Assembly: GCF_900110225.1 (NCBI RefSeq)
Contig: NZ_FOCW01000001.1
Span: forward strand, 372,001-436,000
DNA length: 64,000 nt
Source of the DNA: Allobrachymonas denitrificans DSM 15123
GTDB taxonomy: Bacteria > Pseudomonadota > Gammaproteobacteria > Burkholderiales > Burkholderiaceae_C
Direction: 5' to 3'
The notes below the pieces were generated by a model. That model saw nothing but the letters and a program-made list of their open reading frames with translations. It did not search any database and was not told where the DNA came from. Below are positions 1-48,283 of this stretch, in pieces. A program made the position numbers and the translations under genes. Numbering within the stretch: position 1 is the first letter of the stretch; every line of letters starts with the position of its first letter.

Positions 1-1
1 C

Positions 2-4035: not shown

Positions 4036-4054
4036 GCGAGGACAGAGAATCACC

Positions 4055-5251: not shown

Positions 5252-5274
5252 TCGTCCTCGGCAATGCGCAGAGA

Positions 5275-6217: not shown

Positions 6218-6300
6218 AATCTGTGTGCCTCGCAAGAGGCACATCCGTGCAGCGGGGCGGGACTTTCGTCAAAACGGTGCCGGATTCAGCAAAATGCTGA
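6201..6300. repeat. three small inverted repeats between convergent genes
   Basis: Three hairpins lie between the hydratase and hemG ends. The first (6201-6220, ATTTCAGCA-AG-TGCTGAAAT) includes the hydratase stop codon. The second (6224-6243, TGTGCCTC-GCAA-GAGGCACA) has a GCAA tetraloop. The third (about 6286-6300, TCAGCA-AAA-TGCTGA) reuses the arm sequence of the first. None has a strong T tract. They could terminate transcription from both sides or protect mRNA 3' ends. Confidence 0.5.
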
Positions 6301-6302
6301 GC

Positions 6303-6830: not shown

Positions 6831-6925
6831 GGAGCGGGCCGCTTGGGCGGCAATCAGGAAAGACAGCGCCGACGCTGCCTACAATTCGACACAATAGCGA
6901 TCATACCCACGCAGGACATTCCATC

Positions 6926-7429: not shown

Positions 7430-7508
7430 CGGGGGGCAGGGCGGGGATCGGGAAGCTCTGCGGGGCGTAGTCTCAGGTGGGCGCTGGCTGCCGGTCTGGA
7501 AAATTCGG

Positions 7509-7672
7509 CTCCCAAGCTCCCAAGCTCCCAAGCTCCCAAGCTCCCAAGCTCCCAAGCTCCCAAGCTCCCAAGCTCCCAAGCTCCCAAGCTCCCAAGCTCC
7601 CAAGCTCCCAAGCTCCCAAGCTCCCGAGCTCCCGAGCTCCAGGCACTCAGGCACTCAGGCACTCAGGCACTC
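7509..7672. repeat. compound octamer tandem array
   Basis: Fourteen perfect copies of the 8-mer CTCCCAAG (7509-7620), two variant copies CTCCCGAG (7621-7636), CTCC, then four copies of a second 8-mer AGGCACTC (7641-7672). The array fills the space between the convergent thioesterase and comF genes, and the end of the last AGGCACTC copy provides bases of the comF stop codon. Because 8 is not a multiple of 3, slippage by one unit would shift any frame reading through it. No stop codon occurs in several frames, so spurious open frames run through the array. Confidence 0.97.
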
Positions 7673-8609: not shown

Positions 8610-8615
8610 GCCGGA

Positions 8616-8634
8616 ACTATATACTCCGTGACCT
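8616..8634. promoter_or_regulatory. overlapping back-to-back -10 boxes for comF and bioC
   Basis: Only 25 bp separate the comF and bioC start codons. The sequence ACTATATACT there reads TATACT on the plus strand (8620-8625, 9 bases before the bioC GTG) and TATAGT on the minus strand (8616-8621, 6 bases before the comF ATG). The two -10 boxes overlap by two bases, so the two polymerases would compete. -35 elements are poor and would lie within the opposing gene. Confidence 0.55.
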
Positions 8635-9555: not shown

Positions 9556-9590
9556 CCACGGCGGTCGCTTCCGTGGCTGTGTCATCATGG

Positions 9591-9620
9591 CCGCAAGCCG
9601 CAAGCCGCAAGCCGCAAGCC
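9591..9620. repeat. heptamer tandem array (CCGCAAG)
   Basis: Four perfect copies of CCGCAAG (9591-9618) plus a partial copy, between the convergent bioC and UbiE-like genes and about 10 bases from the latter's stop codon. The same heptamer recurs five times at 38145-38179. Confidence 0.9.
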
Positions 9621-9630
9621 GGTGGCGGAA

Positions 9631-10407
9631 TCAGCCGGCCTTGACGGCCTGGTATTCCGAGAAAATGCCCAGCTCCACATGCCGCTGTGCGCTTGCAAAG
9701 CCGCAGCTCTGCAGCGTAGCCAGAATCTGCGCCGGCGGCGCGCAGGCCTCGATGCTGTCCCAGTAGTAGCGCCACATGCGCGGCGTGTGTGCCTGGGCGC
9801 GGCTCAGCCATGCCAGCGTTGGCACCCAGCCGCGCATATAGCCCTTGAGCAGCGCGGTGCCGAGGGCACTCTCCGGCTTGGTGATTTCCAGGATGCAGAC
9901 GCGTCCACCCGGCCGCAGCACACGGTGGAACTCGCTGAACGCCGCTTCCACATCGGACACATGGCGCAGCGCATAGCCCATGCTGACGAAATCCACGCTG
10001 GCATCGGGCACCGGCAGCTTTTCGGCCTTGCCCTCGAGCAGGCGCACCTGGTTCAGCAGCGGGCTGGCCTGCATCATGGCCGGGCTAGGATCCACGCCGG
10101 TCACCAGCGCCGGATCGCCCACGATGCGGATCGCCTGGGCCGACACCAGCCCGGTGCCGAAGCCCACATCCAGCACCTGCATGCCGCGCTTCAGCCCGGC
10201 GCGCTCCAGCGCCTTGCCGCGGTAGCCGGGGCCGGTGCCGAAAGCCAGCATGCGTTCCACCCGGTCGTAGTCCGCGGCTGTGCTGTCGAAAATGCCGCGC
10301 AGGAAACCGGCGCGCTCCTGCTCGCTGCGATAGTACTCGGTCAGCGGGGCATGCGGCTGATGCACGGGTTCGGTGGCGGCGGGCGATGTGTCGTTGGACT
10401 GGGGCAT
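9631..10407 (-). CDS. class I SAM-dependent methyltransferase, UbiE/MenG-like
   Basis: 258-residue methyltransferase resembling the ubiquinone/menaquinone C-methyltransferases. Motif I VLDVGFGTGLVSAQAIR, the acidic loop GVDPSPAMMQ, and the post-I segment FVSMGYALRHVSDVEAAFSEFHRVLRPGG are well kept, and VCILEITKPESALGTALLKGYMRGWVPTLA resembles the substrate-side helices of UbiE. Sequence around YYWDSIEACAPPAQILATL also fits UbiE-type enzymes. The true ubiE may be elsewhere, so the substrate is left open. The ATG at 10407 is preferred over one 14 codons upstream because the extra residues look non-conserved; neither has a strong ribosome site. It starts divergently from the SCO1 gene. Confidence 0.8.
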   Translation of the reverse strand: MPQSNDTSPAATEPVHQPHAPLTEYYRSEQERAGFLRGIFDSTAADYDRVERMLAFGTGPGYRGKALERAGLKRGMQVLDVGFGTGLVSAQAIRIVGDPALVTGVDPSPAMMQASPLLNQVRLLEGKAEKLPVPDASVDFVSMGYALRHVSDVEAAFSEFHRVLRPGGRVCILEITKPESALGTALLKGYMRGWVPTLAWLSRAQAHTPRMWRYYWDSIEACAPPAQILATLQSCGFASAQRHVELGIFSEYQAVKAG

Positions 10408-10490
10408 GGCAAAGGCAATCGTGGTCAAGGAAACGGCACACCTTACCATGGATGAAGTATGACCCGGACACCGGTTTTACCCCCCGCCCG

Positions 10491-10502
10491 TACAATGCCC
10501 GC
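10491..10502 (+). promoter_or_regulatory. -10 box of the SCO1 gene, leaderless arrangement
   Basis: TACAAT at 10491-10496 is followed by GCCCGC and then the ATG at 10503. A transcript started at the usual distance would begin at or within a base or two of the start codon, and no ribosome-binding site precedes it. Confidence 0.5.
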
Positions 10503-11177
10503 ATGCAAAGCCTTCAATTTCCAAGCATTTCTGCAGCGCAGCCGGAACGGCGTATCGCACTGCGCTGGCTCGGCGCCGGTGCAGGCAGCCTGCTGCTGGC
10601 CGGTTGCGATGTCGGCAGCCTGAGTGATCTGGGCAAGGCAGGCGGCCTGCCCAGCGCCAAGTTCAACAGCCTGGACATCAGCGGCGGCAAATACGCCAAG
10701 GACTTTTCGCTGCTGGACATGAACGGCCAGCGCCGCACCGTGGCCGACTTCCGCGGCAAGGTGGTGGGCATGTTCTTCGGCTACACACAATGCCCCGACG
10801 TGTGCCCGACCACGCTGACAGAAATGGTGCAGGTCAAGCAGCTGCTGGGGGCCGATGCCGATCGTTTCCAGGTGATCTTCGTGACTGTCGATCCCGAGCG
10901 TGACACCCCGGCACTGCTCAAGGAATACATGGCCAACTTCGGCCCGGACTTCCTGGCACTGGTGCCGACACAGGAAGAGCTGCGCAAGACGATTGCACCG
11001 GGCTTTCGTGTGTACTACAAGAAAGTGCCCGGCAGCCAGCCCGAGCACTACACCATGGACCACACTGCCGGCACCCTGCTGATCGACAAGCAGGGCCGCA
11101 TGCGACTGCACAGCAACTATGGTGCCAAGCCCGAGCTGGTGGCCGCCGACGTGAAGGCGTTGCTCGCCGAGGAGTGA
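10503..11177 (+). CDS. SCO1/SenC family copper chaperone lipoprotein
   Basis: 224-residue SCO1/SenC protein, a thioredoxin-fold copper carrier that helps assemble the CuA centre of cytochrome c oxidase. The N terminus has a membrane segment (about residues 18-34) ending in a lipobox LLAGC, so Cys35 is probably lipidated and the protein faces the periplasm. Copper ligands are present: Cys97 and Cys101 in CPDVC, and His187 in MDHTAGT. The redox/metal motif and the VTVDPERDTP strand are intact, so it should be functional. The start is the ATG just after a TACAAT box. It is divergent from the UbiE-like gene. Confidence 0.93.
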   Translation: MQSLQFPSISAAQPERRIALRWLGAGAGSLLLAGCDVGSLSDLGKAGGLPSAKFNSLDISGGKYAKDFSLLDMNGQRRTVADFRGKVVGMFFGYTQCPDVCPTTLTEMVQVKQLLGADADRFQVIFVTVDPERDTPALLKEYMANFGPDFLALVPTQEELRKTIAPGFRVYYKKVPGSQPEHYTMDHTAGTLLIDKQGRMRLHSNYGAKPELVAADVKALLAEE

Positions 11178-11300
11178 CCGGCGCAGCGGCTTGGCGCACG
11201 CTCCGGCACCACGTCGAAGCGCCCGCGCAGTGCGGCGCGCCTGCTTCAGATCCCGGCTCCCGTCAAATCTGCGTAGGCACTGTGTCCCGGCCCGCGCCGC

Positions 11301-12281
11301 TTACTGCGGCCGGATATTGTTGCGGCGGATGATGTCGCCCAGCGCGCGCGTTTCGCCCTGAATGCGGCTGGCCAGTCCTTCCGCCGAGCTGCCCACCGGC
11401 TGCCAGCCCTGCTGCATCAGCTTCTCGCGGATGGCCGGCTGGCGCATCACGTCGGCCAGCGCGCGGGCAAAAGTCTGCACGGCCTGCGGCGATGTCTTCT
11501 TCGACGTGGCAACCGCGTTCCAGATTTCCAGTTCGAAGTTCGGCAGGCCCAGCGGCGGCACGCCCGGAGCCAGGCTGCTGCGTCCCCTGGACGTTACGCC
11601 GATCGCCTTGAGCTTGCCGGCTTTCACCTGCGCCAGCGCCAGCGCAGGCGGCAGCATGCTCATGTGCAGGTCGCCTGCCAGCATGGCCTGGGCTACCTGC
11701 GCATAGCCGGGGTAGGGCACATGCAGGGCGCGGATACCGGTCTGGCTCTTGAGCAGTTCCATGCCCAGATGGCCGATGGTGCCGACGCCGGGTGAGCCGT
11801 AGTTCCACTTGTCGCCACCCGCGCGGGCCTGCTGCAGGAAGGCGGCGGGCGTGGTTGCGGTCGTGCTGGCCGGTGCGGCCAGCAGCAACGGGGCGGTGCC
11901 GATCAGGCTGACCGGCTGCAGGTCCTTGAGCGGATCGTAGGGTGCACGCGGGTTGAGGATCCTGGCAATCGTCAGGTTGCCGTTGATCATCAGGCCGAAG
12001 GTGTGGTCATCGTTGGCGTTGACCACGGCGGCAGCACCGACGTTGCCGCCGGCACCGGGACGGTTTTCCACCACCACCGGCTTGCCCAACGCCTTGGCCA
12101 GGGGTTCGGCCAGCAGGCGTGCGGTCAGGTCGGGCGAACTGCCGCCAGGAAAGCCCACCACCAGACGCACCGGGCGCGAAGGCCAGGCATTGGCGGCCTG
12201 CGCAGACAGCGGCAGCAGGGTGGCAGCAGCGAGGGCCGAGCAGGCCAGGGCGAGGGTACGACGGCGGGAATCACAAGGCAT
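11301..12281 (-). CDS. Bug family tripartite tricarboxylate transporter substrate-binding protein
   Basis: 326-residue periplasmic solute-binding protein of the Bug (TctC) family, widely expanded in Burkholderiales. A signal peptide (MPCDSRRRTLALACSALAAA onward, cut near AQA-AN) precedes WPSRPVRLVVGFPGGSSPDLTARLLAEPL and VVENRPGAGGNVGAAAV, the two hallmark motifs around the ligand carboxylate. The ATG at 12281 is preferred to one eight codons upstream because AAAGGA lies eight bases before it. No membrane components are adjacent; tctBA lies 17 kb away, so it is an orphan or shares that transporter. Ligand unknown. Confidence 0.92.
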   Translation of the reverse strand: MPCDSRRRTLALACSALAAATLLPLSAQAANAWPSRPVRLVVGFPGGSSPDLTARLLAEPLAKALGKPVVVENRPGAGGNVGAAAVVNANDDHTFGLMINGNLTIARILNPRAPYDPLKDLQPVSLIGTAPLLLAAPASTTATTPAAFLQQARAGGDKWNYGSPGVGTIGHLGMELLKSQTGIRALHVPYPGYAQVAQAMLAGDLHMSMLPPALALAQVKAGKLKAIGVTSRGRSSLAPGVPPLGLPNFELEIWNAVATSKKTSPQAVQTFARALADVMRQPAIREKLMQQGWQPVGSSAEGLASRIQGETRALGDIIRRNNIRPQ

Positions 12282-12319
12282 GAACGATTTCCTTTGCGAA
12301 AACAACAGTGCCAGGACAT

Positions 12320-13057
12320 TCAGCCCTGGCCGAACAACTGGATGGCCCAGAACACCAGAAAGCCTGCAAACAGCACCAGGGTGAAGAAAGGCTTTTCTTC
12401 CACCTCATGCGCTTCCATCAGCAACTCTTCGGTGACCAGATAGAGCAGGGCAGCCGCACTGAAGGCCAGCACCGTGCCAATGGTATCGTGCGAGGCCTGC
12501 GCCAGCAGCATGCTGCCCAGTATCGCGCATCCCAGCACTGTCAGGCCGAGCGCGCCCGAGACGGCAACGATCTTCCAGCCGCGGATGCTGTCGGACGCCA
12601 GCGCCAGCCCGAGAAACAGCAGTTCCACCGACAGGCCGATCGCGAGGATGGTTCCTGTTTCGCCACCGGCCGCAAAACCCGCGCCGATGATGAAGCCGTC
12701 CACCGCCACGTCGATGAAGGTGGCCAGCAGCAGGCCGGTGGCCATGCCGGCGGCTGCCTGACCGCTTGCCGCTGCACGCTGTTCTGCGGCGTGTTCGAGC
12801 CGGAGTGTCCAGAGCTTGAGCCCTTACATGAACAGGCTGCCTGCTGCAAAGGCGGCCAGCACATGCCAGGGTTCGGGATGCTCGCGGGCGATTTCGGGCA
12901 GCAGCTCCACCGCCAGTGCCGCCAGCACCACGCCCGCGGCAAAGTGCTGGATCATGCTGCGTGTCTGGTGGCTGGGCGCCCAGACAGCGGCCAGCAACCC
13001 TCCGGCCAGTGCCACGAGGGCGGGAATGGCCATCAGCATCAGGGCATGGGAGTTCAT
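12320..13057 (-). pseudogene. ZIP family metal transporter with one in-frame stop
   Basis: A complete ZIP-type zinc/metal permease of about 245 codons, interrupted by a single in-frame TAA (12824-12826, codon 78). The 5' part reads MNSHALMLMAIPALVALAGG to HVLAAFAAGSLFM; after the stop the same frame continues without a shift through GLKLWTLRLEHAAEQR to ATFIDVAVDGFIIGAGFAAGG, the conserved metal-binding helix, and ends LVFWAIQLFGQG. No frameshift is needed. The loop containing the stop is the cytoplasmic loop typical of the family. It could be a recent nonsense mutation, a sequencing error, or two fragments made separately (an ATG at 12745 restarts just before the metal-binding helices). Confidence 0.82.
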
Positions 13058-13133
13058 GGTGAATTCGCTTTCCGCAAAAACGTGCCGTTCATTGTAGAAC
13101 TGCGCGTTTGCGCCCGACATGGCGAATGCAATG

Positions 13134-13171
13134 AAAAACACCCGGCAACCGAAGGGCCGGTTGCCGGGTGT
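13134..13171 (-). terminator. intrinsic terminator of rpoH
   Basis: A 14-bp perfect stem (arms 13138-13151 and 13158-13171) with a six-base loop; on the minus strand the hairpin is followed by a run of five T residues. It lies about 85 bp after the rpoH stop and before the ZIP gene, so it isolates the two. Confidence 0.9.
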
Positions 13172-13254
13172 GATCAAGTTGGCATCCGCTCACGGGCTGC
13201 CGGAAAAGCAGCGTGACCGGATGGCCGGAGCAGGCTCCGGCCGGGTTGTTTCGC

Positions 13255-14211
<957 letters not shown>

Positions 14212-14278
14212 GTGTCTTCACTCCTTTCAGGGTATTGGATTCATCTCTTGCGGAGATGTTCCTCATCGGCGAAAGATA

Positions 14279-14305
14279 TTAGCACTCCATGGACCGGAGT
14301 GCTAA
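14279..14305 (-). promoter_or_regulatory. CIRCE operator (HrcA site) in the rpoH promoter
   Basis: TTAGCACTC, nine bases, GAGTGCTAA: an exact match to the CIRCE consensus, 67 bp upstream of the rpoH ATG. On the minus strand a TAATAT -10-like box starts inside the right arm, so HrcA bound here would block polymerase. The remainder of the rpoH-ftsY gap (14306-14524) shows no open frame or clear motif. Confidence 0.95.
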
Positions 14306-14524
14306 GTTCGCCGGGAAAACCTGTAACAAATCAGGGGCTGTCCTGCGGGATCGAGAGCCAGTGCGGCGGTTTTCCCTACGCCTTGTTGCACATTCTGACG
14401 CCGGGGCAGGAGGGTGCGGCGTAGGACTTGACGCCAGATGCCGGCCGGAACAGGGTGCGGTCTCGAGCATCACAAATGCCGTTGCCGAGTCGGGCGAAGT
14501 TTCCCGCACTGGCCGTAGGCCTTG

Positions 14525-15952
14525 TCAGCCCAGCAGCGCCTGCGCAAACTCGCGCGCATTGAAGGTTTCCAGATCCTCCAGCTTCTCGCCGACGCCGACG
14601 AAGTACACCGGTACCGGCTTCTCGCGGGCAATGGCGCACAACACGCCGCCCTTGGCCGTTCCGTCGAGCTTGGTCACGATCAGGCCGGTCAGCTCCAGCG
14701 CCTCGTCAAAGGCCTTGACCTGTGCCAGCGCATTCTGACCGGTGTTGCCGTCGATCACCAGCAGCACTTCGTGTGGCGCGGTAACGTAGGCCTTGGTGAT
14801 GGTGCGGCGGATCTTCTTCAGCTCGTCCATCAGGTGCAGCTGCGTGGGCAGACGGCCGGCCGTGTCGACCAGCACCACGTTCTTGCCACGCGCGCGGCCG
14901 GCGGCCACGGCATCGAAGCTCAGGGCGGCTGGGTCACCACCGGCATTGCTGACGATCTCGACCGTGTTGCGGTCGGCCCAGATGGCTAGCTGCTCGCGGG
15001 CCGCGGCGCGGAAGGTGTCGGCAGCGGCCAGCAACACGCTTTGCTGATGGTCGCTCAGATGCTTGGTCAGCTTGCCGATGGACGTGGTCTTGCCCGCGCC
15101 GTTGACGCCGGCCACCATGATGACCGTGGGCGTGTGCTCGCCGATCACCAGCTGTTTTTCCAGCGGCTGCAGCAGTTCGGCGATGGCGTCGGTCAGCAGG
15201 GTGCGTACCTGCGCCGGATCGGTGGCCTTGGCGGCCTTGACGCGGCGCTTGAGGTCTTCCAGCAGGTATTCGGTGGCCTGCACGCCGGCATCGGCCATGA
15301 GCAGGGCGGCTTCGAGGTCTTCGTACAGTTCCTCGTCGATCTTGGTGCCGGTAAAGACTGTCGTGATGCTGCTGCCGGTGCGACGCAGGCCGGTCTTGAG
15401 GCGGTTGAACCAGCCGGCACGGGCCGCAGTGGCTGCCGCATCTGTGGCCTCATCCTCGCTGTCACCGGCTTCGGACGGGGAACTTGCAGCGCTGGTGAGA
15501 TCTGCGTCGGCATTGCTGGCTGCCGGGGGGGCTTCCGCCTCGTCCACACCCTTTGCATGGTCCAGTGCATCTTCCGGCACGGCGGCCAGTGCCGCTTCGG
15601 TCAGTGCGGCTTCGTCGATCGGGGTGGGCTCCAGGGCGGCGGAGCTGCTGTCCATCGCGTCATGCTGCAGGGCCTGGATCAGGGCCTGCTCGGCCAGCGG
15701 CAGTTCGCCGGCGGGGGCGGTCTCGGGCGCCGCGCTGTTGCCGGCTGCAGCATCGTCACCACCAAAGCTGCGGCGGAGCCGGTTGAGCCAACCGCCGGAT
15801 GCCGGTGCCACTTCTGCCGCGGCAGGAGCTTCAGGCGCTGCCGGAGCCGCCTGCACTTCCGCTGCTGCAGGCGTCGCTGGCGCTGCCTCGGCAGCGGGAG
15901 TTTCGACGGCAGGATCGGGGGTGGCAGGTTTTTTCTTGAAGAAGCTGAACAT
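14525..15952 (-). CDS. ftsY: signal recognition particle receptor FtsY
   Basis: 475-residue SRP receptor GTPase that delivers ribosome-nascent chains to the Sec translocon. The first residues MFSFFKKKP form a basic membrane-contact end, followed by an acidic, Ala/Pro-rich A domain of about 170 residues. The NG domain follows, with G1 [33 protein letters not shown] and [10 protein letters not shown]. The ATG at 15952 is chosen because it gives the usual FtsY N terminus; upstream in-frame codons add unrelated residues. It starts divergently from rsmD with about 107 bp between them. Confidence 0.96.
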
Positions 15953-16059
15953 GGCGGAGTGGAGTGGGCGCGACGCGGGCAATCCCCTCATTGTACGAAG
16001 TGCGTGGGTCTGCGGCATGACAGCCGGCAAGTTATCGGGCTGCGTCGGCTTTTTCCCCT

Positions 16060-16842
16060 ATGATTCCGGCCATGGGACGTTCCAGCCTGTCTTTGTCAGC
16101 CATCGAAAAACGCCTGCGCAGCCAGGCGGGGTCTTCGCTTTCTGCGCCGGACGCTGCCTCTGGGGCCGAAGAGGGGCGCGTCGGCAAGGCCATCGGGCAG
16201 CGTGCTTCAAGGGCATCCGGAAGGCCGCCAACCACAGGCAAGGGGCAAGCCGGAAGAGGCGCCTCTGTGCATGCTGCGGGGCAGGTCCGCATTGTCGGTG
16301 GCGCATGGCGCCGGCGCTTGCTGCCGGTGGCGTCCGGCCCGGGTGTTCCCGCCGGCCTGCGCCCCACGCCAGACCGTGTGCGCGAAACCCTGTTCAACTG
16401 GCTGGGCCAGGATCTGGGCGGCTGGCACTGCGTCGACCTGTGTGCCGGCACCGGCGCACTGGGGCTGGAGGCAGCGTCGCGCGGTGCTGCCAGCGTGCTG
16501 CTGCTGGAGCAGCATGCGGCGCTGGTGCGCCAGTTGCGCGACCTGAAAACCTTGCTGAATGCCGGCACCGTGCAGGTACGCCAGGGCGATGCACTGGCCG
16601 TGCTGCGCGAACTGGCACGTCGTCCCGCCAGCATCGACCTGCTGCTGCTCGATCCTCCCTTCGATGCCGACTGGTATGCCCCGGCGCTGGAAGCGGCCCG
16701 TCCCGTCGTGCGCGATGGCGGCTATCTGTACCTGGAAGCTGGCCGCGAATGGACGGACGAGGAACTGGCCGGACTGGGCTGGCAGCGCTGGCGCTATCTC
16801 AAGGCCGGACAGGTGCATGCCCATCTGCTGCAGCCCGTCTGA
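16060..16842 (+). CDS. rsmD: 16S rRNA (guanine(966)-N(2))-methyltransferase RsmD
   Basis: RsmD methylates G966 of 16S rRNA late in 30S assembly. The enzymatic core starts near residue 73 with VRIVGGAWRRRLLPV and contains GLRPTPDRVRETLFNWL, the SAM loop VDLCAGTGALGLEAASRGA, and the catalytic LLLLDPPFD. The protein is 260 residues, about 60 more than usual; the excess is a low-complexity N-terminal tail of Ser, Ala, Gly and Arg. If that tail is not translated the start could be a later GTG or ATG, for example ATG 16072, but no clear internal ribosome site was found. coaD starts 41 bp downstream, the usual order in Burkholderiales. Confidence 0.9.
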   Translation: MIPAMGRSSLSLSAIEKRLRSQAGSSLSAPDAASGAEEGRVGKAIGQRASRASGRPPTTGKGQAGRGASVHAAGQVRIVGGAWRRRLLPVASGPGVPAGLRPTPDRVRETLFNWLGQDLGGWHCVDLCAGTGALGLEAASRGAASVLLLEQHAALVRQLRDLKTLLNAGTVQVRQGDALAVLRELARRPASIDLLLLDPPFDADWYAPALEAARPVVRDGGYLYLEAGREWTDEELAGLGWQRWRYLKAGQVHAHLLQPV

Positions 16843-16883
16843 ACGCGCCTTCCCCGAACATTGACCGAATTGCAGGAGACACC

Positions 16884-17372
16884 ATGCCCAACATCACCGC
16901 CATCTACCCCGGCACCTTCGACCCGCTCACCCTCGGCCATGAAGAGCTGGTGCGCCGCGCCTCGCAGCTGTTCGATCACCTGATTGTGGCGGTGGCAGCC
17001 GGCCACCACAAGAAGCCCATGTTCGACCTGCAGGAGCGGCTGGACATGGTGCGCCAGGCAGTGGCCAAGTACGGCAACGTGACGGTGGAAGCCTACGACG
17101 GCCTGCTGCGTGATTTCGTGGTGGCGCGCGGCGGCAAGGCCATGGTGCGCGGCCTGCGCGCCGTGACCGACTTCGATTACGAATTCCAGCTGGCCGGCAT
17201 GAACCGCCACCTGATGCCCGAGGTGGAAACCGTGTTCCTCACCCCCAGCGTGCAGTACCAGTTCGTCAGCAGCACCTATGTGCGCGAGATTGCCACCCTG
17301 GGTGGCGAGGTGGACGTGTTCGTGTCGCCGGGAGTGTTCCGCCGCCTGATGGACAAGGTGGGCCGCGCATGA
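16884..17372 (+). CDS. coaD: phosphopantetheine adenylyltransferase
   Basis: 162-residue enzyme joining 4'-phosphopantetheine and ATP to make dephospho-CoA, the fourth step of CoA synthesis. The nucleotidyltransferase signature YPGTFDPLTLGHEEL (residues 8-22) and the C-terminal SSTYVREIA motif are intact, and length is normal. GCAGGAGA stands before the ATG at 16884. Its stop codon overlaps the next start by four bases (ATGA), showing translational coupling with the DUF1294 gene. Confidence 0.96.
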   Translation: MPNITAIYPGTFDPLTLGHEELVRRASQLFDHLIVAVAAGHHKKPMFDLQERLDMVRQAVAKYGNVTVEAYDGLLRDFVVARGGKAMVRGLRAVTDFDYEFQLAGMNRHLMPEVETVFLTPSVQYQFVSSTYVREIATLGGEVDVFVSPGVFRRLMDKVGRA

Positions 17373-17656
17373 CCCTGGCCCGCTGGCTGGTGGTGGTCTA
17401 TGTGTCCGCCAGCCTGTGCGCCTTCATTGCCTATGCCTGGGACAAGGCCGCGGCGCGCGCCGGCAATCAGCGCATCCCGGAGAGTTTTCTGCATCTGCTG
17501 GCGGTGATCGGCGGCTGGCCGGGTGCCTGGCTGGCACAGCAACTGTTCCGGCACAAGACGGTCAAGCAGCCGTTTCGCAGCATTTTCTGGCTCACCGTGC
17601 TGCTGAATCTGGCAGCAGTGGCCGGTGTTCTGTACTGGCTGGCGCAGGGTGGCTGA
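17369..17656 (+). CDS. DUF1294 family small membrane protein
   Basis: 95-residue protein with about three hydrophobic segments (residues 3-24, 40-58 and 70-92). The motif YAWDKAAARAGNQRIPESFLHLLAVIGGWPGAWLAQQLFRHKTVKQPFRSIFW, here only summarised by its key residues W-DK, R-P and GGWPGA, is the DUF1294 core. The family is widespread and has no proven function; it is sometimes fused to a cold-shock domain, which is absent here. Start and coaD stop overlap in ATGA. Confidence 0.85.
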   Translation: MTLARWLVVVYVSASLCAFIAYAWDKAAARAGNQRIPESFLHLLAVIGGWPGAWLAQQLFRHKTVKQPFRSIFWLTVLLNLAAVAGVLYWLAQGG

Positions 17657-18434
17657 AGTAGTTCAAGACTTCAGGGCGCGTGGAGACGCGTGGAAGTCGG
17701 CACGTCTACAGCGCAATGTGCGCGGGGATTTTTCGGCATGGCATCGCGGGCGGGTGTGGTTTCTGCTCTGGGCGCTGGATGTGGACGTGCCGGCATTGCG
17801 TCCCCTGTTTGCACAGGCCAGACAGCAGCTGGCGCCCTGGCTGCTGCATGGCTATCGGCGCCAGCCGCATGTGACGCTGGGGCTGTGTGGCTTTCCAGGG
17901 CAGACGCGAGCGCAGTCGTCGCTAGGCGATCGCATGCAGGAGCATCACGTGGCGGGGGAGTCCGATAGCCTGCCGGATGCCTGCAGTCTCGCGGGATTGC
18001 GGAGGCAGGTGGAGGGTCTGGAGCGTTCCATTGCCTTGTCGCCCTTCAGGATGGACGTGGGAGGAGCCGGCAGCTTCACTTCTGCGCCATTTCTTGCCGT
18101 GCATCAGGGAGGTGAACTGCAGGCGCTGCGCGCTGCACTCGCTCTGGATCCGGCCTTGCAGCATCTGGAGGACTATGTGCCGCACGTCACGCTGGGGCTG
18201 TACCGGGAGTCCTGGCTGCGCTCTCAGCTGCAGCAAGGGCTGCGAGCCGTCGATGGCTTGCCCACTGTGTCGTTGCAGGTGCGGCAGGTGCAGCTGATGG
18301 CGTATGCGGCGGCCGATGTGGGCGGGCCGCTGGTGACGGTGGCGGCGTTTGATCTGCGCAGCCGCCGCTTGCGCTGGAATCCCCCCGCTTGCCGTGTGCT
18401 GGGCGAGTCCTGGTTGAAAACCTGGGATGGATAG
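17625..18434 (+). CDS. 2H phosphoesterase superfamily protein (2'-5' RNA ligase-like)
   Basis: 269-residue protein with two copies of the signature His-x-Thr motif, PHVTLGLCGF near residue 81 and PHVTLGLYRE near residue 186, spaced as in the two-fold repeat of LigT-type 2H phosphoesterases. Such proteins hydrolyse or join 2'-5' phosphodiester or cyclic phosphate bonds in RNA or nucleotides. The start is uncertain: ATG 17625 overlaps the DUF1294 gene by 32 bp and GTG 17649 by 8 bp; neither has a strong ribosome site. Probably the last gene of the rsmD-coaD run. The 133 bp after it hold no further gene. Confidence 0.75.
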   Translation: MFCTGWRRVAEVVQDFRARGDAWKSARLQRNVRGDFSAWHRGRVWFLLWALDVDVPALRPLFAQARQQLAPWLLHGYRRQPHVTLGLCGFPGQTRAQSSLGDRMQEHHVAGESDSLPDACSLAGLRRQVEGLERSIALSPFRMDVGGAGSFTSAPFLAVHQGGELQALRAALALDPALQHLEDYVPHVTLGLYRESWLRSQLQQGLRAVDGLPTVSLQVRQVQLMAYAAADVGGPLVTVAAFDLRSRRLRWNPPACRVLGESWLKTWDG

Positions 18435-18567
18435 CTGACGAGCCGCAAAGCGAACTCCGCGAGAACTGAAACCGGGCCGCGCGCGAGGCAATGAGCGCTG
18501 TGAGCTGCCACGATTGCCACTTTGACGGAACTGAGCCGAGCGAGAGGCAATGAGCCAGCAGCCGCAG

Positions 18568-20277
18568 TCAGTCCGCCATGCCCTCCACCACAAACTGCAC
18601 GCTCTCGCGCCCCTGCCAGCTGTTGATGTCCAGACGATAGGCCAGATGCGCCCGTGCCGGCAGCGGCTCGCTGCGGCCGAACCAGATGCCGTCCACTGTT
18701 TCGCCCTGATGGCGCAGCTGCAGCTTGAGGTGGCGCTCGCCCACCAGGCGCTGCTGCACCACGTCCAGCTCCTCGCTGAACACCGGTGCGGCAAACCCCT
18801 GGCCCCAGACCGCCTGCTGCAGGCTGGCGGCCACGTCGGTGCGGCGGAACTGGGCGGGCAGGGCCCCATCGGTTTCCAGCGTGCGCTGCAGGGTGGCGGC
18901 GTCCAGCCATTCTTCGGCCACCGTGGCCAACGCCTGCTTGAACACGTCGAGATGCTCACGGGCAATGGTGCAGCCGGCAGCCATGGCATGCCCGCCGAAC
19001 TTCTGCAGCACCTCGGGATGGCGCTTGGCGACCAGATCCAGCGCATCACGCAGGTGAAAGCCGGCGATGGAGCGGCCCGAACCCTTGAGCAGGTGCTCCA
19101 TGCCCGGAGCGGCACTGGCCGCAAACACGAAAGTGGGGCGATGCAGCCGGTCCTTCAGGCGCGAGGCGACAATGCCGACCACGCCTTCATGGAAGCTGTC
19201 GTCGAACACGCTGAGCGCGGCAGGCGGTTCGTGCAGGGCATCGTGCAGGCTTTCGGCCAAGGTGAAGGCCTGGGCGCGCATGCCATCCTCGATGTCGCGG
19301 CGCTCGCGGTTGATGGCTTCCAGCCGCTGCGCCAGTTCCATCGCGCGCAGGGCATCGTCGGTGAGCAGGCATTCGATGCCCAGCGTCATGTCGGACAGGC
19401 GTCCGGCAGCGTTGATGCGCGGGCCGAGGGCAAAGCCGAAATCGAAGGTGGAGGCGGTCTGCCAGGGGCGGCCGGCCACTTGGAACAGGGCACGCATGCC
19501 CGCGGGCATGGAGCCTGCGCGGATGCGGCGCAGGCCTTGCGCCACCATGCGGCGGTTGTTGGCGTCCAGGCGCACCACGTCGGCCACGGTGCCGAGGGCC
19601 ACCAGAGGCAGCAGAGGGTCGAGACGCGGCTGCTCGCCATTGGCAAAGGCGTCACGCGTGCGCAACTCGGCGCGCAGGGCCAGCAGCACGTAGAACATCA
19701 CGCCCACGCCAGCCAGCGCCTTGCTGGGGAAAGTGCACTCCGGATGGCTGGGATTGACGATGACGTCGGCACCGGGCAGTTCGGCACCGGGCAGGTGGTG
19801 GTCGGTGATCAGCACCTGCAGGCCCAGCGCCTGCGCCTGGCGCACGCCATCGACGCTGGCAATGCCGTTGTCCACCGTCACCAGCACATCGGCGCCGGTG
19901 GCGCGCACGCGTTCGGCGATAGAGGCCGTCAGCCCATAGCCATCGACCACGCGATCCGGCACCAGATAGCTGACCTGGCGCGCCCCGAGCAGGCGCAGGC
20001 CGCGCACGGCCACGGCGCAGGCGGTGGCGCCGTCGCAGTCGTAGTCGGCCACGATGCAGATGGACTTGTCGGCCGCCATGGCGTCAGCCAGCAGGCGAGC
20101 GGCTTCTCCCGTGCCGCGCAGTGCAGCAGGTGGCAACAGGTGGGTGAGGGCATCGTCCAGTTCGGACGGTTGGATGACACCGCGGGCAGCGTAGAGCTGG
20201 GCCAGCAGCGGATGCAGGCCACCTTGCTCCAGCGCCCAGCGGGCGCGCGGCGGCACGTCGCGCTCGATCAGGCGCAT
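18568..20277 (-). CDS. recJ: single-stranded-DNA exonuclease RecJ
   Basis: 569-residue 5'-3' single-strand exonuclease used in recombination, mismatch repair and fork repair. DHH-family metal motifs are intact: VADYDCDGATA (DYDCDG at residues 78-83), VDNGI (135-139) and TDHHLPG (158-164), then the GHAMAAGCTI motif of the DHHA1 domain near residue 440. Length is normal. Its ATG lies three bases after the stop codon of the upstream gene, so both should be on one transcript. Confidence 0.96.
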   Translation of the reverse strand: MRLIERDVPPRARWALEQGGLHPLLAQLYAARGVIQPSELDDALTHLLPPAALRGTGEAARLLADAMAADKSICIVADYDCDGATACAVAVRGLRLLGARQVSYLVPDRVVDGYGLTASIAERVRATGADVLVTVDNGIASVDGVRQAQALGLQVLITDHHLPGAELPGADVIVNPSHPECTFPSKALAGVGVMFYVLLALRAELRTRDAFANGEQPRLDPLLPLVALGTVADVVRLDANNRRMVAQGLRRIRAGSMPAGMRALFQVAGRPWQTASTFDFGFALGPRINAAGRLSDMTLGIECLLTDDALRAMELAQRLEAINRERRDIEDGMRAQAFTLAESLHDALHEPPAALSVFDDSFHEGVVGIVASRLKDRLHRPTFVFAASAAPGMEHLLKGSGRSIAGFHLRDALDLVAKRHPEVLQKFGGHAMAAGCTIAREHLDVFKQALATVAEEWLDAATLQRTLETDGALPAQFRRTDVAASLQQAVWGQGFAAPVFSEELDVVQQRLVGERHLKLQLRHQGETVDGIWFGRSEPLPARAHLAYRLDINSWQGRESVQFVVEGMAD

Positions 20278-43017: not shown

Positions 43018-45162
43018 TCAAATGCCCAGCGGATCCACGTCAATGGCCCAGCGCAGGATGGTGCGGTTGCGCTGCGCGTGCAGCTGCTGCGCCAGTTGCG
43101 GCAGAAAACGCTGCAGGGCGGCGCGGTTGCCGCTTTCGAGCAGCATCTGCGCGCGCTCGCGGTTGGCCACGCGCTGCGGCGTCATGGGAATGGCGGGGTA
43201 GCAGAACACTTCCGCGGCTTCCGGCACATCGGCAGCCGCGCTGCTGGCAGCATTGAGAAAATCCTGCGCCGCCTGCTGCTCGCGGCTTTCCGCACGCACC
43301 AGTGCCTGGTAGCTGAAGGGCGGCATGCCGGCAGCAGCGCGCTCTTCCAGCTGCTGGGCGGCAAACGCCGGATAGTCGTGGCGCTGCAGGGCGGCAAACA
43401 GCGCATGCGTGGGAAAGCGCGTCTGCACCCACAGCTCGCTGGTGCTGCCGATGGCGGCATCGCGCCCGGCCCGGCCGCCGGCCTGCAGCAACAGGCTGAA
43501 CAGCCGCTCCGGCGCACGGAAATCACTGCTGAACAGGGCAGTATCCGGGTTGAGCGCCGCCACCAGCGTGATGCGGCGGAAATCATGGCCCTTGGCAATC
43601 ATCTGTGTGCCCACCAGCACATCCACATCGCCGCTGTGCACGCGCGCCAGCTGCTGCTCCAGGCTGCCGGCGTGGCGTGTGGTATCGGCATCGACGCGCG
43701 CAATCACCAGCGGCTGGCCATCCGGGCGCGTGAGGGCGCGCAATTCATGAGCCAGGGCTTCTTCCAGTTGCTCGGTGCCCTGGCCCAGCGTCTGCACATC
43801 CAGATTGCCGCAGGACGGGCACGCGCGTGGCACGCGTTCGGTAAAGCCGCAGTGGTGGCAGCGCAGGGTACGGTCGATCTTGTGGAACACGCGGTAGGCG
43901 CTGCAGTGCGGGCATTCGCTTTTCCAGCCGCAATCGGCGCAATGCAGCACGGGAGCGTAGCCGCGCCGGTTCAGCAGCACCATGCTCTGTTCGCCGCGCG
44001 CGGCCCGCTCGGCCATGGCCTCCAGCAACTGGGGGCTGAACACGCAACGGCGGTGCTGGTGGTTCATGTCGACCAGTCGTACGCGCGGCAGTGGCGCAGC
44101 GCCGATGCGGGCCGGCATGGCCAGACGCAGATAGCGGCCGCCGGCATCGCCATCCCCGGCTGGCCGGCTCTGGTGCCAGCTCTCCAGCGAAGGGGTGGCC
44201 GAGCCCAGCAGGATGCGGGCTTGCGCATGGTGCGCGCGGTAGATGGCCAGATCCCTTGCAGAATAGCGGGCGCCTTCCTGCTGCTTGTAGCTGGGGTCGT
44301 GCTCTTCGTCCACCACGATCAGGCGCAGGCCCGGCAGCGACGCCAGCACGGCCATGCGTGTGCCCAGCACGATGCGCGCCTGTCCGGTATGCGCCGCCAG
44401 CCAGCCCTGCAGGCGCTGCGCCGGAGTCAGGCCACTGTGCATGGAGGCGATGCGCTGGTCGGGGAAGCGGTCGGCAAAGCGCTGCTCCAGCTGGGGCGTC
44501 AGGTTGATCTCCGGCACCATCACCAGCACCTGCGCGCCAGGCTCCTGCTCCAGCGTGCGCGCCACGGCCTGCAGATAGACTTCGGTCTTGCCACTGCCCG
44601 TGCTGCCGAACAGCAGGCAGGGGCGGGGCGCCGTGCCTCCATCCGCCGGTGCCAGCAGCGTGTCCAGCGCCTGCTGCTGCTGGGGTGTCAAGGGCAGCGG
44701 GGCGGATGCGGTGCGCGCCTCCAGACCCTTGTCTGCCGCCAGCTTGCGCAGCCGGCGTGCCAGCTGGGTGCCGTCCAGATCCCGCAGCTGTGGCGGCAGG
44801 GCCGACAAGGCCACTTCGCCCATGCTGCGCTGATAGTAGTGCGCGGTGAAGGTCACCAGCCGGCGCCAGCTTGCATCCAGCGGGGGCAGGGCGGTGAAGG
44901 CTTCCAGCAGGGGGCGCAGTTGCAGCCCCTCCTGCTGCGGCAGGGGTACATCGTCCCACACCACGCCCAGAACGGCACGCGCACCCAGCGGCACGCGCAC
45001 CAGCGTGCCAGGCGGCAGGCGCCCGGTGTGCGTGTAGTGCAGGGGGGTGGCAGACAGCGGGCTGTGCGCCGGCAGCGCCACAAGCACCGACAGCACCTGC
45101 GATTCCTGGCCTGGAGCGCCGGATTCGCTGTCTGCAGAGGGGGTGGAATCCATAGCCAGCAC
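43018..45162 (-). CDS. priA: primosomal replication restart helicase PriA
   Basis: 714-residue helicase that reloads the replisome at stalled forks. Walker A GSTGSGKT at residues 186-193, DEEH motif in LIVVDEEHDPSYKQ, and the eight zinc cysteines in CADCGWKSECPHC and CHHCGF...CPSCG are intact, as is the GTQMIAKGHDF motif. Starts at residue 1 or at Met4 are both possible. The first start lies 59 bp from a DnaA-box pair upstream. Confidence 0.95.
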   Translation of the reverse strand: MLAMDSTPSADSESGAPGQESQVLSVLVALPAHSPLSATPLHYTHTGRLPPGTLVRVPLGARAVLGVVWDDVPLPQQEGLQLRPLLEAFTALPPLDASWRRLVTFTAHYYQRSMGEVALSALPPQLRDLDGTQLARRLRKLAADKGLEARTASAPLPLTPQQQQALDTLLAPADGGTAPRPCLLFGSTGSGKTEVYLQAVARTLEQEPGAQVLVMVPEINLTPQLEQRFADRFPDQRIASMHSGLTPAQRLQGWLAAHTGQARIVLGTRMAVLASLPGLRLIVVDEEHDPSYKQQEGARYSARDLAIYRAHHAQARILLGSATPSLESWHQSRPAGDGDAGGRYLRLAMPARIGAAPLPRVRLVDMNHQHRRCVFSPQLLEAMAERAARGEQSMVLLNRRGYAPVLHCADCGWKSECPHCSAYRVFHKIDRTLRCHHCGFTERVPRACPSCGNLDVQTLGQGTEQLEEALAHELRALTRPDGQPLVIARVDADTTRHAGSLEQQLARVHSGDVDVLVGTQMIAKGHDFRRITLVAALNPDTALFSSDFRAPERLFSLLLQAGGRAGRDAAIGSTSELWVQTRFPTHALFAALQRHDYPAFAAQQLEERAAAGMPPFSYQALVRAESREQQAAQDFLNAASSAAADVPEAAEVFCYPAIPMTPQRVANRERAQMLLESGNRAALQRFLPQLAQQLHAQRNRTILRWAIDVDPLGI

Positions 45163-45221
45163 TGTAACCGCTCGGCCTGCAGGTCAGCTGCCCGACGCTG
45201 CACGGAACTACCCACATATCT

Positions 45222-45334
45222 TGTGGACAACTTTGTGGGTGGTCACAGGGATAAGGGCTGGAAGCCGCGCCAGCACTGGCCTGCAAGACACTGCGCGAAA
45301 AAGGGGCACGGCCGAAATCCGGCACTTGTTTGCC
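45222..45334 (+). repeat. module R1 (partial): DnaA-box-like pair upstream of alkB
   Basis: Starts with TGTGGACAA, CTT, TGTGGGTGG (45222-45242). Aligned without gaps to module R2 it keeps patches near +40 to +47 and the GCGAAAAAGGGGCA region near +73, but it lacks the AT-rich end motif at +104. It lies in the 268-bp gap between priA and alkB. Confidence 0.7.
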
Positions 45335-45430: not shown

Positions 45431-46060
45431 ATGCAGACCCTCGCCGCTCCCCTGTTCCCTGCCCGCCCGGCGCAGTCGACGCAAGGCAGTCTGTTCGATC
45501 CGCAGCCCCTGAGGCTGATCTCCGATGCCGAAGGCGGTGTGCGCTATTGGCCACCGCGCATGCCGGAGGCGGAGCAGCAGCGCTGCTTCGCGCAGTTGCT
45601 GCAGGCGCTTCCCTGGCAGCAGGAGCGGCGCCAGATGTACGAACGCATGCTCGACGTGCCGAGGCTGCAGGCAAGCCTGCCGCTGGCAGAGGCCTGTGCC
45701 ATTCCTGCCGTGCGTGTGGCCTACCAACTGGTGCAGGAGGTGGCGCCGTCTGCGTTCAGCCATGTGGGCTTCAACCTCTATCGCGACGGGCAGGACAGTG
45801 TGGCCATGCACAACGACCGCCTGCACCGGCTGGCGCCCGGCCAGCCCATCGCGCTGGTGTCCTTCGGCCATGCGCGCGAAATGGTGCTGCGGGCCAAGAA
45901 TGGGGGCCATCGGCCTGTGCGGGTGCTGTTGGAGCCCGGCAGCGTGCTGTCCATGAGCCATGCCTCCCAGTTCACCCATAAACACGGCATCCCCAAGACG
46001 CGCGACAGCGTCGGAGCCCGCATCAGCTGTGCGTTTCGCGTGCGGCCTTCAGGGCTGTAG
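45431..46060 (+). CDS. alkB: AlkB-type 2-oxoglutarate/Fe(II) DNA dealkylase
   Basis: 209-residue dioxygenase that oxidatively removes alkyl groups from DNA bases. The iron ligands are His127 and Asp129 in MHNDRLHRL and a distal His in FTHKHGIPK (His185); Arg197 and Arg203 in ARISCAFR are six residues apart, as are the two 2-oxoglutarate arginines of E. coli AlkB. The N-terminal nucleotide-recognition lid is short. The LexA box makes it part of the SOS regulon rather than the Ada adaptive response. ATG 45431 has only a weak ribosome site. Confidence 0.9.
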   Translation: MQTLAAPLFPARPAQSTQGSLFDPQPLRLISDAEGGVRYWPPRMPEAEQQRCFAQLLQALPWQQERRQMYERMLDVPRLQASLPLAEACAIPAVRVAYQLVQEVAPSAFSHVGFNLYRDGQDSVAMHNDRLHRLAPGQPIALVSFGHAREMVLRAKNGGHRPVRVLLEPGSVLSMSHASQFTHKHGIPKTRDSVGARISCAFRVRPSGL

Positions 46061-46089
46061 CCACTGTGTCGCACTCTGCCCACAGCGTC

Positions 46090-46211
46090 TGTGGACAACT
46101 TTGTGGGTGACTTTGGGACGGACAGGCTAAGTCCGCGTCAGTCAAGGCTTTGTACAGTCTGCCGCAAAAACGGGCATGCGCCATCTTTTCATGTAAATCA
46201 ACAACTTACGA
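46090..46211 (+). repeat. module R2: DnaA-box-like pair plus AT-rich motif
   Basis: TGTGGACAA, CTT, TGTGGGTGA at 46090-46110; CAAGGCTT at offset 53; AAAAACGGGCAT near offset 76; TAAATCAAC ending at offset 112. Offsets of these motifs equal those in R3, and the two align without gaps over 112 bp. Confidence 0.8.
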
Positions 46212-46541
46212 TATGTGTGGAAGGAAACCATGCGCACGGCGCCGGAGACAGGCTTGCAGCGGCCTGACTGGGGACAACTCGATGTCAAATTCATGTCGCA
46301 CTGCACACAAGAGGCAGCAAACCCTGTGGATTTGAACAGCATCGGCGCAAAGCCTTGTGGGACAAGGCTTACAGCGGGGTCTCGGCTGCAGGCCAGAGTC
46401 CATGCGGCATTCCGGGCAGGGGGTGTCGGAAGCCGCATGAAACAAGGCTTTCGGGAGGGGTTGCCGCTGCCCACACGAACTGTGGATAACTTTGTGGATG
46501 GCTTCTGGACGGATGCGCCAAAGCCTTGATGGACAAGGCTT
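46142..46541. repeat. ACAAGGCTT iteron-like repeats and two hairpins
   Basis: Four direct copies of (A/T)CAAGGCTT at 46142, 46362, 46442 and 46533. Two of them form hairpins with inverted partners: AAGCCTTGT-GGG-ACAAGGCTT (46350-46370) and AAGCCTTG-N5-CAAGGCTT (46521-46541). The first hairpin could also end alkB transcription. Confidence 0.7.
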
Positions 46542-46678
46542 CCAGTAGCTTGCCCATAAATAGGGCATTTTTATGAACGTAAATAAAATCAACGGGTTAG
46601 ACGTTGATTTCCGGACTCCAAAGGCGTGCCTGACAATTGCGCATGGAACATGAGGTTCTGCCCGCGAAGTGTGCACAA
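46481..46678 (+). repeat. module R3: DnaA-box pair, AT-rich motif, third box
   Basis: A perfect DnaA box TGTGGATAA, CTT, then TGTGGATGG (46481-46501); the 14-mer TAAATAAAATCAAC at 46580-46593 (offsets 99-112); TGATTTC at offset 124; and TGTGCACAA at 46670 (offset 189). The middle is diverged from R4, but end motifs and spacing are kept. Confidence 0.85.
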
Positions 46679-46840
46679 GTCATGCCGGGTGTGCACGCTT
46701 CCCCCAGCTTTTGGGGGTTTTCCGGCCAAGACAAACGCGGGCTTGTCAAGGTCAAGATCCGGACGATAGCTGAAGCTTCCCGCCACCATCCGGCGCTAAG
46801 CGCTTGTCCCTGCAGGGATTGGCAGGGTTGTGCAGCAATG

Positions 46841-47039
46841 TGTGGATAACTTTGTGCATAGGCCGTGGGCAAGCGGACTTATCGTTGATAAATCAAGCGC
46901 TTGCGTCACTTTCAGAAAAATCCGCAACCTGGAAATTATTAAATAAAATCAACAAGATGCGATGTGATTTCAAGACCATGCAGGGTGCTCGGGAATAGGC
47001 GGGAAATGGCCGGCCCCGCCCGCAAAAAAATGTGCACAA
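46841..47039 (+). repeat. module R4: DnaA-box pair, AT-rich motif, third box
   Basis: A perfect DnaA box TGTGGATAA, CTT, then TGTGCATAG (46841-46861); the identical 14-mer TAAATAAAATCAAC at 46940-46953 (offsets 99-112); TGATTTC at offset 124; TGTGCACAA at 47031 (offset 190). It is 360 bp downstream of R3. No credible coding frame exists anywhere in 46061-47164. Confidence 0.85.
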
Positions 47040-47108
47040 GTCAGCGGAGGAGGGGGTAAAAACCGGTATAAGGCGCGTCAGATCGAACAGGGGGCACCTG
47101 CAAGACAG

Positions 47109-47143
47109 GACAGCCCCGCCCGGCGAGTCCGGACGGGGCTGTC
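47109..47143 (-). terminator. hairpin after hemE
   Basis: 15-bp stem with one mismatch and a five-base loop (arms 47109-47123 and 47129-47143, rich in GACAGCCCCG / CGGGGCTGTC), 22 bases after the hemE stop. The T tract is weak, so it may stabilise the mRNA end as much as terminate. Confidence 0.6.
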
Positions 47144-47164
47144 ATGCAGCAAGGGGAGGCGGAA

Positions 47165-48283
47165 TCAGGCGCCTGTATTGCGCATGGCGCGCGAGTGGCT
47201 GTGCACAGCCTCGACCAGCGCGGCCACATGCTCGGGCGGGGTGAACTGGCTGATGCCGTGGCCCAGGTTGAAGATGTGCGTCGGGCCACGGCCTTCGCCC
47301 TGGTGCGGCGTGCCGAAGCTGTCCAGCACCTTGCGGGCTTCCACCTGCACCGTTTCGGGCGGGGCAAACAGCACGTTGGGGTCCAGGTTGCCCTGCAGGC
47401 CCTTGCCGTTGCCGTCTTTCCACAGCGCTGCGCGTGCGGCACCCAGGTTCACCGTCCAGTCCACGCCGAGCACATCGCAGTCCAGCGCCTGCATCTGCTG
47501 CAGCCACAGGCCGCCGCCCTTGGTGAACACGATGCGCGGCACGTCCTGACCATCCGGGCCGGTGCGCTTGAGCTGGCCCAGCACACGCTGCGTATAAGCC
47601 AGGCTGAAGGCCTGGAAGGCGCCATCCGCCAGCACGCCGCCCCAGCTGTCAAACACCATTACCGCCTGCGCGCCGGCATCGATCTGCGCATTCAGGTAGG
47701 TCGCCACGCTGTCGGCGTTGATGGCCAGGATGCGGTGCATCAGGTCGGGGCGGCTGTACATCAGCGTCTTCACGGCGCGGTAGTCGTCACTGCCGCCGCC
47801 TTCCACCATGTAGCAGGCCAGCGTCCAGGGGCTGCCACTGAAACCGATCAGCGGCACGCGGCCGTTCAGCGCCTTGCGGATGCTGGTGACGGCATCGAAG
47901 ACATAGCGCAGCTTGTCCATGTCCGGCACGGCGAGTGCATCCACGGCGGCTTCGTCACGCACATTGCGCTCGAACTTGGGGCCTTCGCCGATCTGGAAGC
48001 TCAGGCCCAGTCCCATGGCATCGGGCACGGTCAGGATGTCGCTGAACAGGATGGCGGCATCCAGCGGAAAGCGCTCCAGCGGCTGCAGCGTCACTTCGGT
48101 GGCGTAGTCCACATTGGTGGCCAGCCCCATGAAGCTGCCTGCCTTGGCGCGCGTATCGCGGTACTCGGGCAGATACCGTCCGGCCTGGCGCATCAGCCAC
48201 AGCGGCGTGTAGTCGGTCGCAAGGCCGCGGCAGGCGCGCAGAAAGGTGTCGTTGGTCAGCGGGGCAAAGGCGGAAGTATTCAT
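47165..48283 (-). CDS. hemE: uroporphyrinogen decarboxylase
   Basis: 372-residue enzyme removing four carboxyl groups from uroporphyrinogen III to give coproporphyrinogen III. The N-terminal signature [16 protein letters not shown], the substrate-binding [39 protein letters not shown] and the C-terminal [16 protein letters not shown] are all intact. ATG 48283 gives the usual start; the frame is open further upstream without homology. It ends next to the gene-free repeat region. Confidence 0.97.

Follow-up and report, generated by a model that had tools for sequence, protein, structure and literature searches.

Tandem modules of DnaA boxes and IHF sites between priA and hemE of Allobrachymonas denitrificans as probable DnaA-reactivating sequences

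Between the convergent genes for an alkB-like 2OG-Fe(II) oxygenase and hemE, the genome of Allobrachymonas denitrificans contains a gap (46061 to 47164) that harbors three modules with paired DnaA boxes. What could such an array be for? A first interpretation made from the DNA alone (here called the sequence-only reading) had offered several answers: a replication origin, an accessory site for DnaA titration or reactivation, or a dispersed element. We weighed these answers using the surrounding stretch of 64,000 nucleotides (here called the window), which is part of contig C12 of the 2.71-Mb A. denitrificans genome, together with related genomes and the known DnaA-binding elements of Escherichia coli. 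The GC content of the gap is 55%, compared to 65% for the window.

Modules in the priA-hemE interval

The modules were named R0, R1, R3, and R4, R0 being an extra copy and the other three those of the sequence-only reading. Positions in the following list refer to the window, and offsets count from the first base of box II.

43018 to 45162, minus strand: priA, diverging from alkB
45208 to 45242, plus strand: R0, DARS-type core only, with box I CTACCCACA at 45208, box II TGTGGACAA at 45222, and box III TGTGGGTGG at 45234
45431 to 46060, plus strand: alkB-like 2OG-Fe(II) oxygenase gene, convergent with hemE
46076 to 46110, plus strand: R1 core, with box I CTGCCCACA at 46076, 5 nt, box II TGTGGACAA at 46090, 3 nt, and box III TGTGGGTGA at 46102
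46196 to 46208, plus strand: R1 IHF site AATCAACAACTTA, exact consensus, offset +106
46467 to 46501, plus strand: R3 core, with box I CTGCCCACA at 46467, 5 nt, box II TGTGGATAA (perfect) at 46481, 3 nt, and box III TGTGGATGG at 46493
46587 to 46599, plus strand: R3 IHF site AATCAACGGGTTA, exact consensus, offset +106
46670 to 46678, plus strand: R3 third site TGTGCACAA, DnaA-like, offset +189
46841 to 46861, plus strand: R4 core, with box II TGTGGATAA (perfect) at 46841, 3 nt, and box III TGTGCATAG at 46853
46891 to 46903, plus strand: R4 secondary IHF site AATCAAGCGCTTG, exact consensus, offset +50
46947 to 46959, plus strand: R4 IHF-like site AATCAACAAGATG, one mismatch, offset +106
47031 to 47039, plus strand: R4 third site TGTGCACAA, DnaA-like, offset +190
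47165 to 48283, minus strand: hemE, with the array on its 3′ side

On the plus strand, box pairs of the form TGTGGAYAA-CTT-TGTG begin at 45222, 46090, 46481, and 46841. The three pairs with a CTT spacer that had been described are present, with a perfect first box in R3 and R4 and one mismatch in R1. Their delimitation held only in part: the fourth pair (45222) lies outside the region originally proposed, and the start has to be placed 14 bases earlier. This fourth copy, R0, sits in the divergent priA-alkB gap and has neither an IHF site nor a third site in register. A facing box I was found 14 bases before box II at 46076 (6/9), 46467 (6/9), and 45208 (7/9), scored as matches to TTATNCACA with N counted as a match; the respective position in R4, 46827, is not box-like (2/9).

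Beyond the core, the spacing is as the sequence-only reading had it. The motif AAATCAAC ends exactly 112 bases past the first base of the pair in all three modules (46202, 46593, and 46953), TGATTTC occurs at offset 124 in R3 and R4 (46605 and 46965), and the two modules also share TGTGCACAA, at offset 189 in R3 (46670) and 190 in R4 (47031). In R1, a third site was not found in register. The AT-rich motif reads as part of an IHF site and not as an unwinding element; its end, AAATCAAC, corresponds to the left half of the consensus WATCAANNNNTTR. Between R3 and R4, identity is 90% in the core and 37% in the middle; the units have diverged between the sites.

The 16-mer of the box pair is clearly overrepresented in the window, with six matches at up to three mismatches compared to 0.40 in shuffles; four of these are exact, one is a shadow of R1, and one lies at 25658. 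Exact copies of WATCAANNNNTTR number three against 0.25 expected, all in this region (two at +106 and one at +50). The 9-mer alone is not significant in the window (seven matches with at most one mismatch where 3.48 are expected; 10 of 100 shuffles also reach seven), and its five exact occurrences genome-wide correspond to the frequency of a reversed control. In the whole 2.71-Mb genome, the 16-mer matches five places at up to two mismatches, four of them at this array, which argues against the dispersed element that had been considered. The fifth match belongs to another complete unit of this type, located upstream of xseA:

537310 to 537440 of contig C12 (locus L008, around 1487 to 1617): xseA unit, with box I TTGTCCACG, perfect box II, and an exact IHF site at +104

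Two other candidate explanations for the gap were rejected. A hidden protein gene was not supported by Pfam searches with four ORFs lying within the gap, none of which exceeded a Pfam cut-off (best E value, 0.08). With regard to structured RNA, all Rfam families stayed below their gathering scores, and no tRNA was detected. As a separate observation, a palindrome, AAGCCTTG-N5-CAAGGCTT, is located at 46350 to 46370 and at 46521 to 46541, the second copy inside R3. No further copy exists in the 424 kb of A. denitrificans sequence examined; in 0.82 Mb of stretches from a complete genome of the same genus (G003), the corresponding locus has one copy, and a version with a longer loop occurs elsewhere.

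Conservation among relatives and in a wider genome scan

The search for relatives covered 60 genomes, including that of A. denitrificans itself, and hemE was found in all of them. Sequences were compared for 54 genomes, 53 of them downstream of hemE (3′ side) and the last, G004, on a contig that the module itself had selected; G001, G005, G007, G008, G016, and G045 were left out of the comparison. A module was called if the core had at most three mismatches together with one of three forms of box II. By this definition it is present in 46 of the 54 genomes, and it lies 3′ of hemE in 45 of the 53 (same order). In the remaining eight (G036, G041, G043, G044, G046, G049, G050, and G053) it was not found 3′ of hemE; G050 has a match to the DARS core elsewhere. 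The number of matches per genome is one in 32, two in nine, three in three, and four in two; among the nine is G054 (spacing of 188), where the second match is the third site, itself core-like.

Sixty-six modules, two of them from G004, had enough flanking sequence for a comparison (here called the hemE set). The IHF consensus is found at +104 to +109 in exact form in 43 of them and with at most one mismatch in 57, while shuffled modules yielded a mean of 0.23 and a maximum of three one-mismatch sites in register. A secondary IHF-like site at +50 (at most one mismatch) is shared by 13 of the 66 modules, including R1 with one mismatch and R4 with an exact match. Downstream of the core, 51 of 52 matches to TGTGNANAA fall at +173 to +198, with 33 at +187 to +190. 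The columns richest in information are those of the core, the IHF site, and the third site in a set of 43 modules, one per genome, that were picked for a core and an IHF match (31 with a third site), so that these columns are partly selected. The facing box at -14 scores at least 6/9 in 26 of the 66 modules (null, 0.027); box I stays below 6/9 in 40 of the 66, as well as in 32 of the 84 modules of the scan loci listed. The sequence-only reading had argued that conserved ends around a drifting middle point to function, and the conservation across the order supports this argument.

Furthermore, genomes of individual species were scanned with a composite pattern of box II, part of box III, and the IHF site; box I was not demanded. 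The scan gave at least 120 stretches, and the 80 loci listed contain 84 modules. Since the pattern demanded an IHF site, its presence in these loci is unusable as evidence. A facing box of at least 6/9 lies at -14 in 52 of the 84 modules listed (null, 0.033 per position), while the other offsets between -30 and -9 reach 12 at most. The motif TGTGNANAA occurs at +170 to +199 in 47 of the 84.

With regard to neighboring genes, hemE and/or priA were detected in 44 of the 80 loci listed, xseA in 20, and uvrB in one (Rodentibacter); 15 match none of the six genes queried. The loci are at most 8 kb long, with the match often off center, so a missing gene may lie past the end of a locus. HemE of the window is 80 to 84% identical to HemE in several Acidovorax, Comamonas, and Simplicispira scan loci, which suggests a Comamonadaceae-like member of Burkholderiales. 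In addition, the pattern CACA-N5-TGTGGATAA-N3-TGT was present in 262 of 369 genomes of the class, with zero occurrences of the reversed control among the matches listed; in A. denitrificans it occurs once, in R3.

Comparison with DARS1, DARS2, and datA of E. coli

The closest counterparts of these modules are the DnaA-reactivating sequences (DARS), whose defining paper is Fujimitsu 2009. In E. coli MG1655, a core of the form TTATCCACT-5 nt-TGTGGATAA-3 nt-TGTGTATTA starts at 813107 between bioD and uvrB, and we take it to be DARS1. A second core, TTATTCACC-5 nt-TGTGGATAG-3 nt-TGTGAAGAA, starts at 2969135 before mutH (DARS2). DARS1 and DARS2 are described as having the same box spacing, with box I opposite to boxes II and III (PMC5742627). 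The same arrangement, with box I facing box II and spacers of 5 and 3 nt, is present in R0, R1, and R3 and absent from R4. In E. coli work, the head-to-head box pair is called essential (PMC10380432).

The match to DARS2 goes beyond the core. In E. coli DARS2, IHF-like sites with one mismatch each lie at +79 and +95, 3 bp apart, and TTATCCACA lies at +197. Judging from the sequence, the former are presumably IBS1-2, the core at 2969135 is presumably that of DARS2, and TTATCCACA at +197 probably represents box V. A box cluster at 2969465 had also been a candidate for the DARS2 core and was displaced by 2969135 to 2969169 on the grounds of the two IHF-like sites 3 bp apart and the core-IBS-FBS order implied in PMC4245941.

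The geometry of box I, 5 nt, box II, 3 nt, and box III is common to DARS2 and the modules; both have an IHF-like site about one hundred bp away on the side of box III (PMC4245941, PMC8682772), and the DnaA-like site that R3 and R4, unlike R0 and R1, have at +189/+190 may be a counterpart of the E. coli box at +197. DARS2 activity reportedly drops when IBS1-2 is shifted by 5 or 10 bp (PMC4245941), which fits the fixed spacing seen here. The two differ in other respects. The main IHF site of the modules lies at +106 and those of E. coli at +79 and +95, i.e., 11 bp or about one helical turn beyond +95; the third site of the modules is reversed relative to TTATCCACA of E. coli; and the modules form three to four tandem units at priA-hemE, with a box I that is degenerate and, in R4, missing.

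E. coli DARS2 requires Fis. In the hemE set, matches to the Fis consensus were not enriched, either at +21 to about +105 (7 of 66 modules against a shuffle mean of 5.3) or beyond the IHF site at +119 to about +210, the region corresponding to FBS2-3 (6 of 66 against 5.15); both counts use the E. coli consensus, from which the sequence preference of Fis in this order may differ.

As a side observation, the MG1655 interval from 2969080 to 2969660 (locus L330) contains a second DARS-like core, TTATCCCAG-5 nt-TGTGGATAA-3 nt, 316 bp past that of DARS2, with the IHF consensus WATCARNNNNTTR 105 bp beyond it. E. coli DARS2 may hence be a degenerate tandem pair.

DARS1 shares the spacing of the three-box core with the modules. 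Unlike them, it has no IHF consensus WATCARNNNNTTR with at most one mismatch within 450 bp, and it is described as acting without additional factors (PMC5742627). The Rodentibacter scan locus holds uvrB, the gene adjoining the E. coli DARS1 core.

The known element that competes with DARS2 is datA, where IHF loops same-direction boxes on both sides of its site, promoting DnaA-ATP hydrolysis or titration and delaying initiation. The IHF site of the modules likewise lies between the pair and a same-direction TGTGNANAA (+173 to +198) in R3, R4, and at most 51 of the 66 modules. In E. coli datA, with the IHF site at -69 and boxes at -162 and 0, the IHF site is also located between same-direction DnaA boxes, one end being a pair with 3-nt spacing, TGTGGATAACTCTGT, that is one mismatch away from the module core. 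The weakness of box I in many modules favors a datA-like element as well. The order, however, is different, as datA has the single box first, followed by IHF and the pair, and the modules have the pair, IHF, and then the single box. Moreover, no facing box was found in datA at the DARS distance, and the sharp peak at exactly -14 in the scan is a feature of DARS; datA complexes are described as mainly head-to-tail (PMC5742627). We therefore regard a datA-like function as unlikely, and the titration proposed earlier is the weaker rival of the reactivation site, which is the best supported of the initial suggestions.

Even less probable is a promoter region for priA (or alkB or hemE) controlled by DnaA and IHF. 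It would agree with the detection of priA in 42 of the 80 loci listed, seven of them without detected hemE (which may lie past the end in some), and with the position of R0 in the divergent priA-alkB gap. R1, R3, and R4, in contrast, sit between the 3′ ends of alkB and hemE, 0.9 to 1.7 kb from the start of priA, and the same architecture recurs at xseA and uvrB and in loci with none of the queried genes.

Position of the origin and significance of the array

The origin that had been proposed was checked by GC skew in two complete relatives. In G003, from which 40 stretches were sampled (with positions 1 to 20000 three quarters masked), the skew is below zero from 1.09 Mb onward, fades to weakly negative or near-zero values between 1.95 and 2.28 Mb, and is positive from 2.31 Mb; the array lies at 1.79 Mb and dnaA at 2.16 Mb. 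In G011, for which 20 stretches covered 2.86 to 4.02 Mb only, the skew is near zero from 3.30 Mb and switches sign at 3.34 to 3.40 Mb, and the array lies at 3.89 Mb. In both, the lasting change is about 0.5 Mb away from the array. For A. denitrificans itself, contig C12 was sampled up to 736 kb, and the cumulative skew of the window peaks, rather than dips, around 46 to 52 kb.

At 2.309 Mb of G003, an opposed pair of TTATCCACA lies 40 bp apart beside gidA, followed by gidB and parB. The homologous region of A. denitrificans is on another contig (C15) and has one exact DnaA box. The oriC of the genus is likely to lie beside gidA and not dnaA (G003, locus L155, 9960 to 10200; A. denitrificans C15, locus L301, 5270 to 5450). 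Close to the array in G003, the stretch from 1.768 to 1.788 Mb (locus L128) shows positive skew amid negative neighbors, which does not last; its mirror image appears to the right of hemE in the window, and local gene orientation is perhaps the cause. That isolated stretch, the combination of DnaA boxes, IHF sites, and AT-richer DNA, and the lack of a DnaA box (at most one mismatch) within 1.5 kb of dnaA in A. denitrificans would speak for an origin or second origin at the array, a reading we dismiss almost entirely given the distant skew changes, the peak in the window, and the gidA-side region on a different contig.

We regard the array as genuine and old, as an element of a known kind, and not as a replication origin. 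From its likeness to the E. coli element, we consider it probable that it consists of tandem DARS2-type DnaA-reactivating sequences that depend on IHF. Among proteins encoded in the A. denitrificans genome, IHF-alpha and IHF-beta scored above the NCBIfam cut-offs and one HU-like protein below, as judged from the matched stretches. Furthermore, the genome encodes a DnaA, a 237-amino-acid frame with two weak matches that is presumably Hda, and a 94-amino-acid frame with a Fis-type helix-turn-helix that is presumably Fis.

If the behavior of E. coli DARS2 in binding proteins, releasing ADP, and affecting the timing of initiation can be carried over, ADP-DnaA would bind the core, strongly at box II, beside it at box III, and, where present, at box I facing box II. 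IHF, bound about 106 bp away, would bend the DNA, and DnaA at the third site (+189/+190) might thereby be brought to the core. The resulting complex would loosen ADP, so that DnaA could leave and reload ATP, and ATP-DnaA would be raised before the next initiation at an oriC located elsewhere (beside gidA in the same-genus relative).

Conservation of the DARS2 core-IBS-FBS sequences and spaces has been ascribed to E. coli-proximal beta- or gammaproteobacteria (PMC5742627), to gammaproteobacteria (PMC4245941), and to many proteobacterial species (PMC10380432). No description of an element at priA-hemE was found in the titles and abstract openings of the open-licence literature on DARS and DnaA boxes. 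Because DARS2-like spacing in beta- or gammaproteobacteria is in print and no priA-hemE description was found, we classify the array as a variant of DARS and not as a new kind of system; it differs by its array form, its locus, and its missing Fis sites.

Tentatively, and with more doubt than confidence, we suggest that Burkholderiales may use a DARS that is driven by IHF, does without Fis, and owes its strength to copy number (one to four tandem units at priA-hemE) and to the quality of box I. Together with the second site at xseA, it might be the order's main source of ATP-DnaA, and DARS might characteristically lie beside replication-restart and repair genes (priA, xseA, uvrB, and mutH) across beta- and gammaproteobacteria.

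In the parts of the cited papers considered here, the experimental work on DnaA reactivation concerns E. coli. An order-wide element placed with precision next to priA-hemE, in one to four copies, would make DARS function testable beyond the near relatives of E. coli. It could then be asked if DARS can do without Fis, if box I is required, and if the timing of initiation is tuned by copy number.
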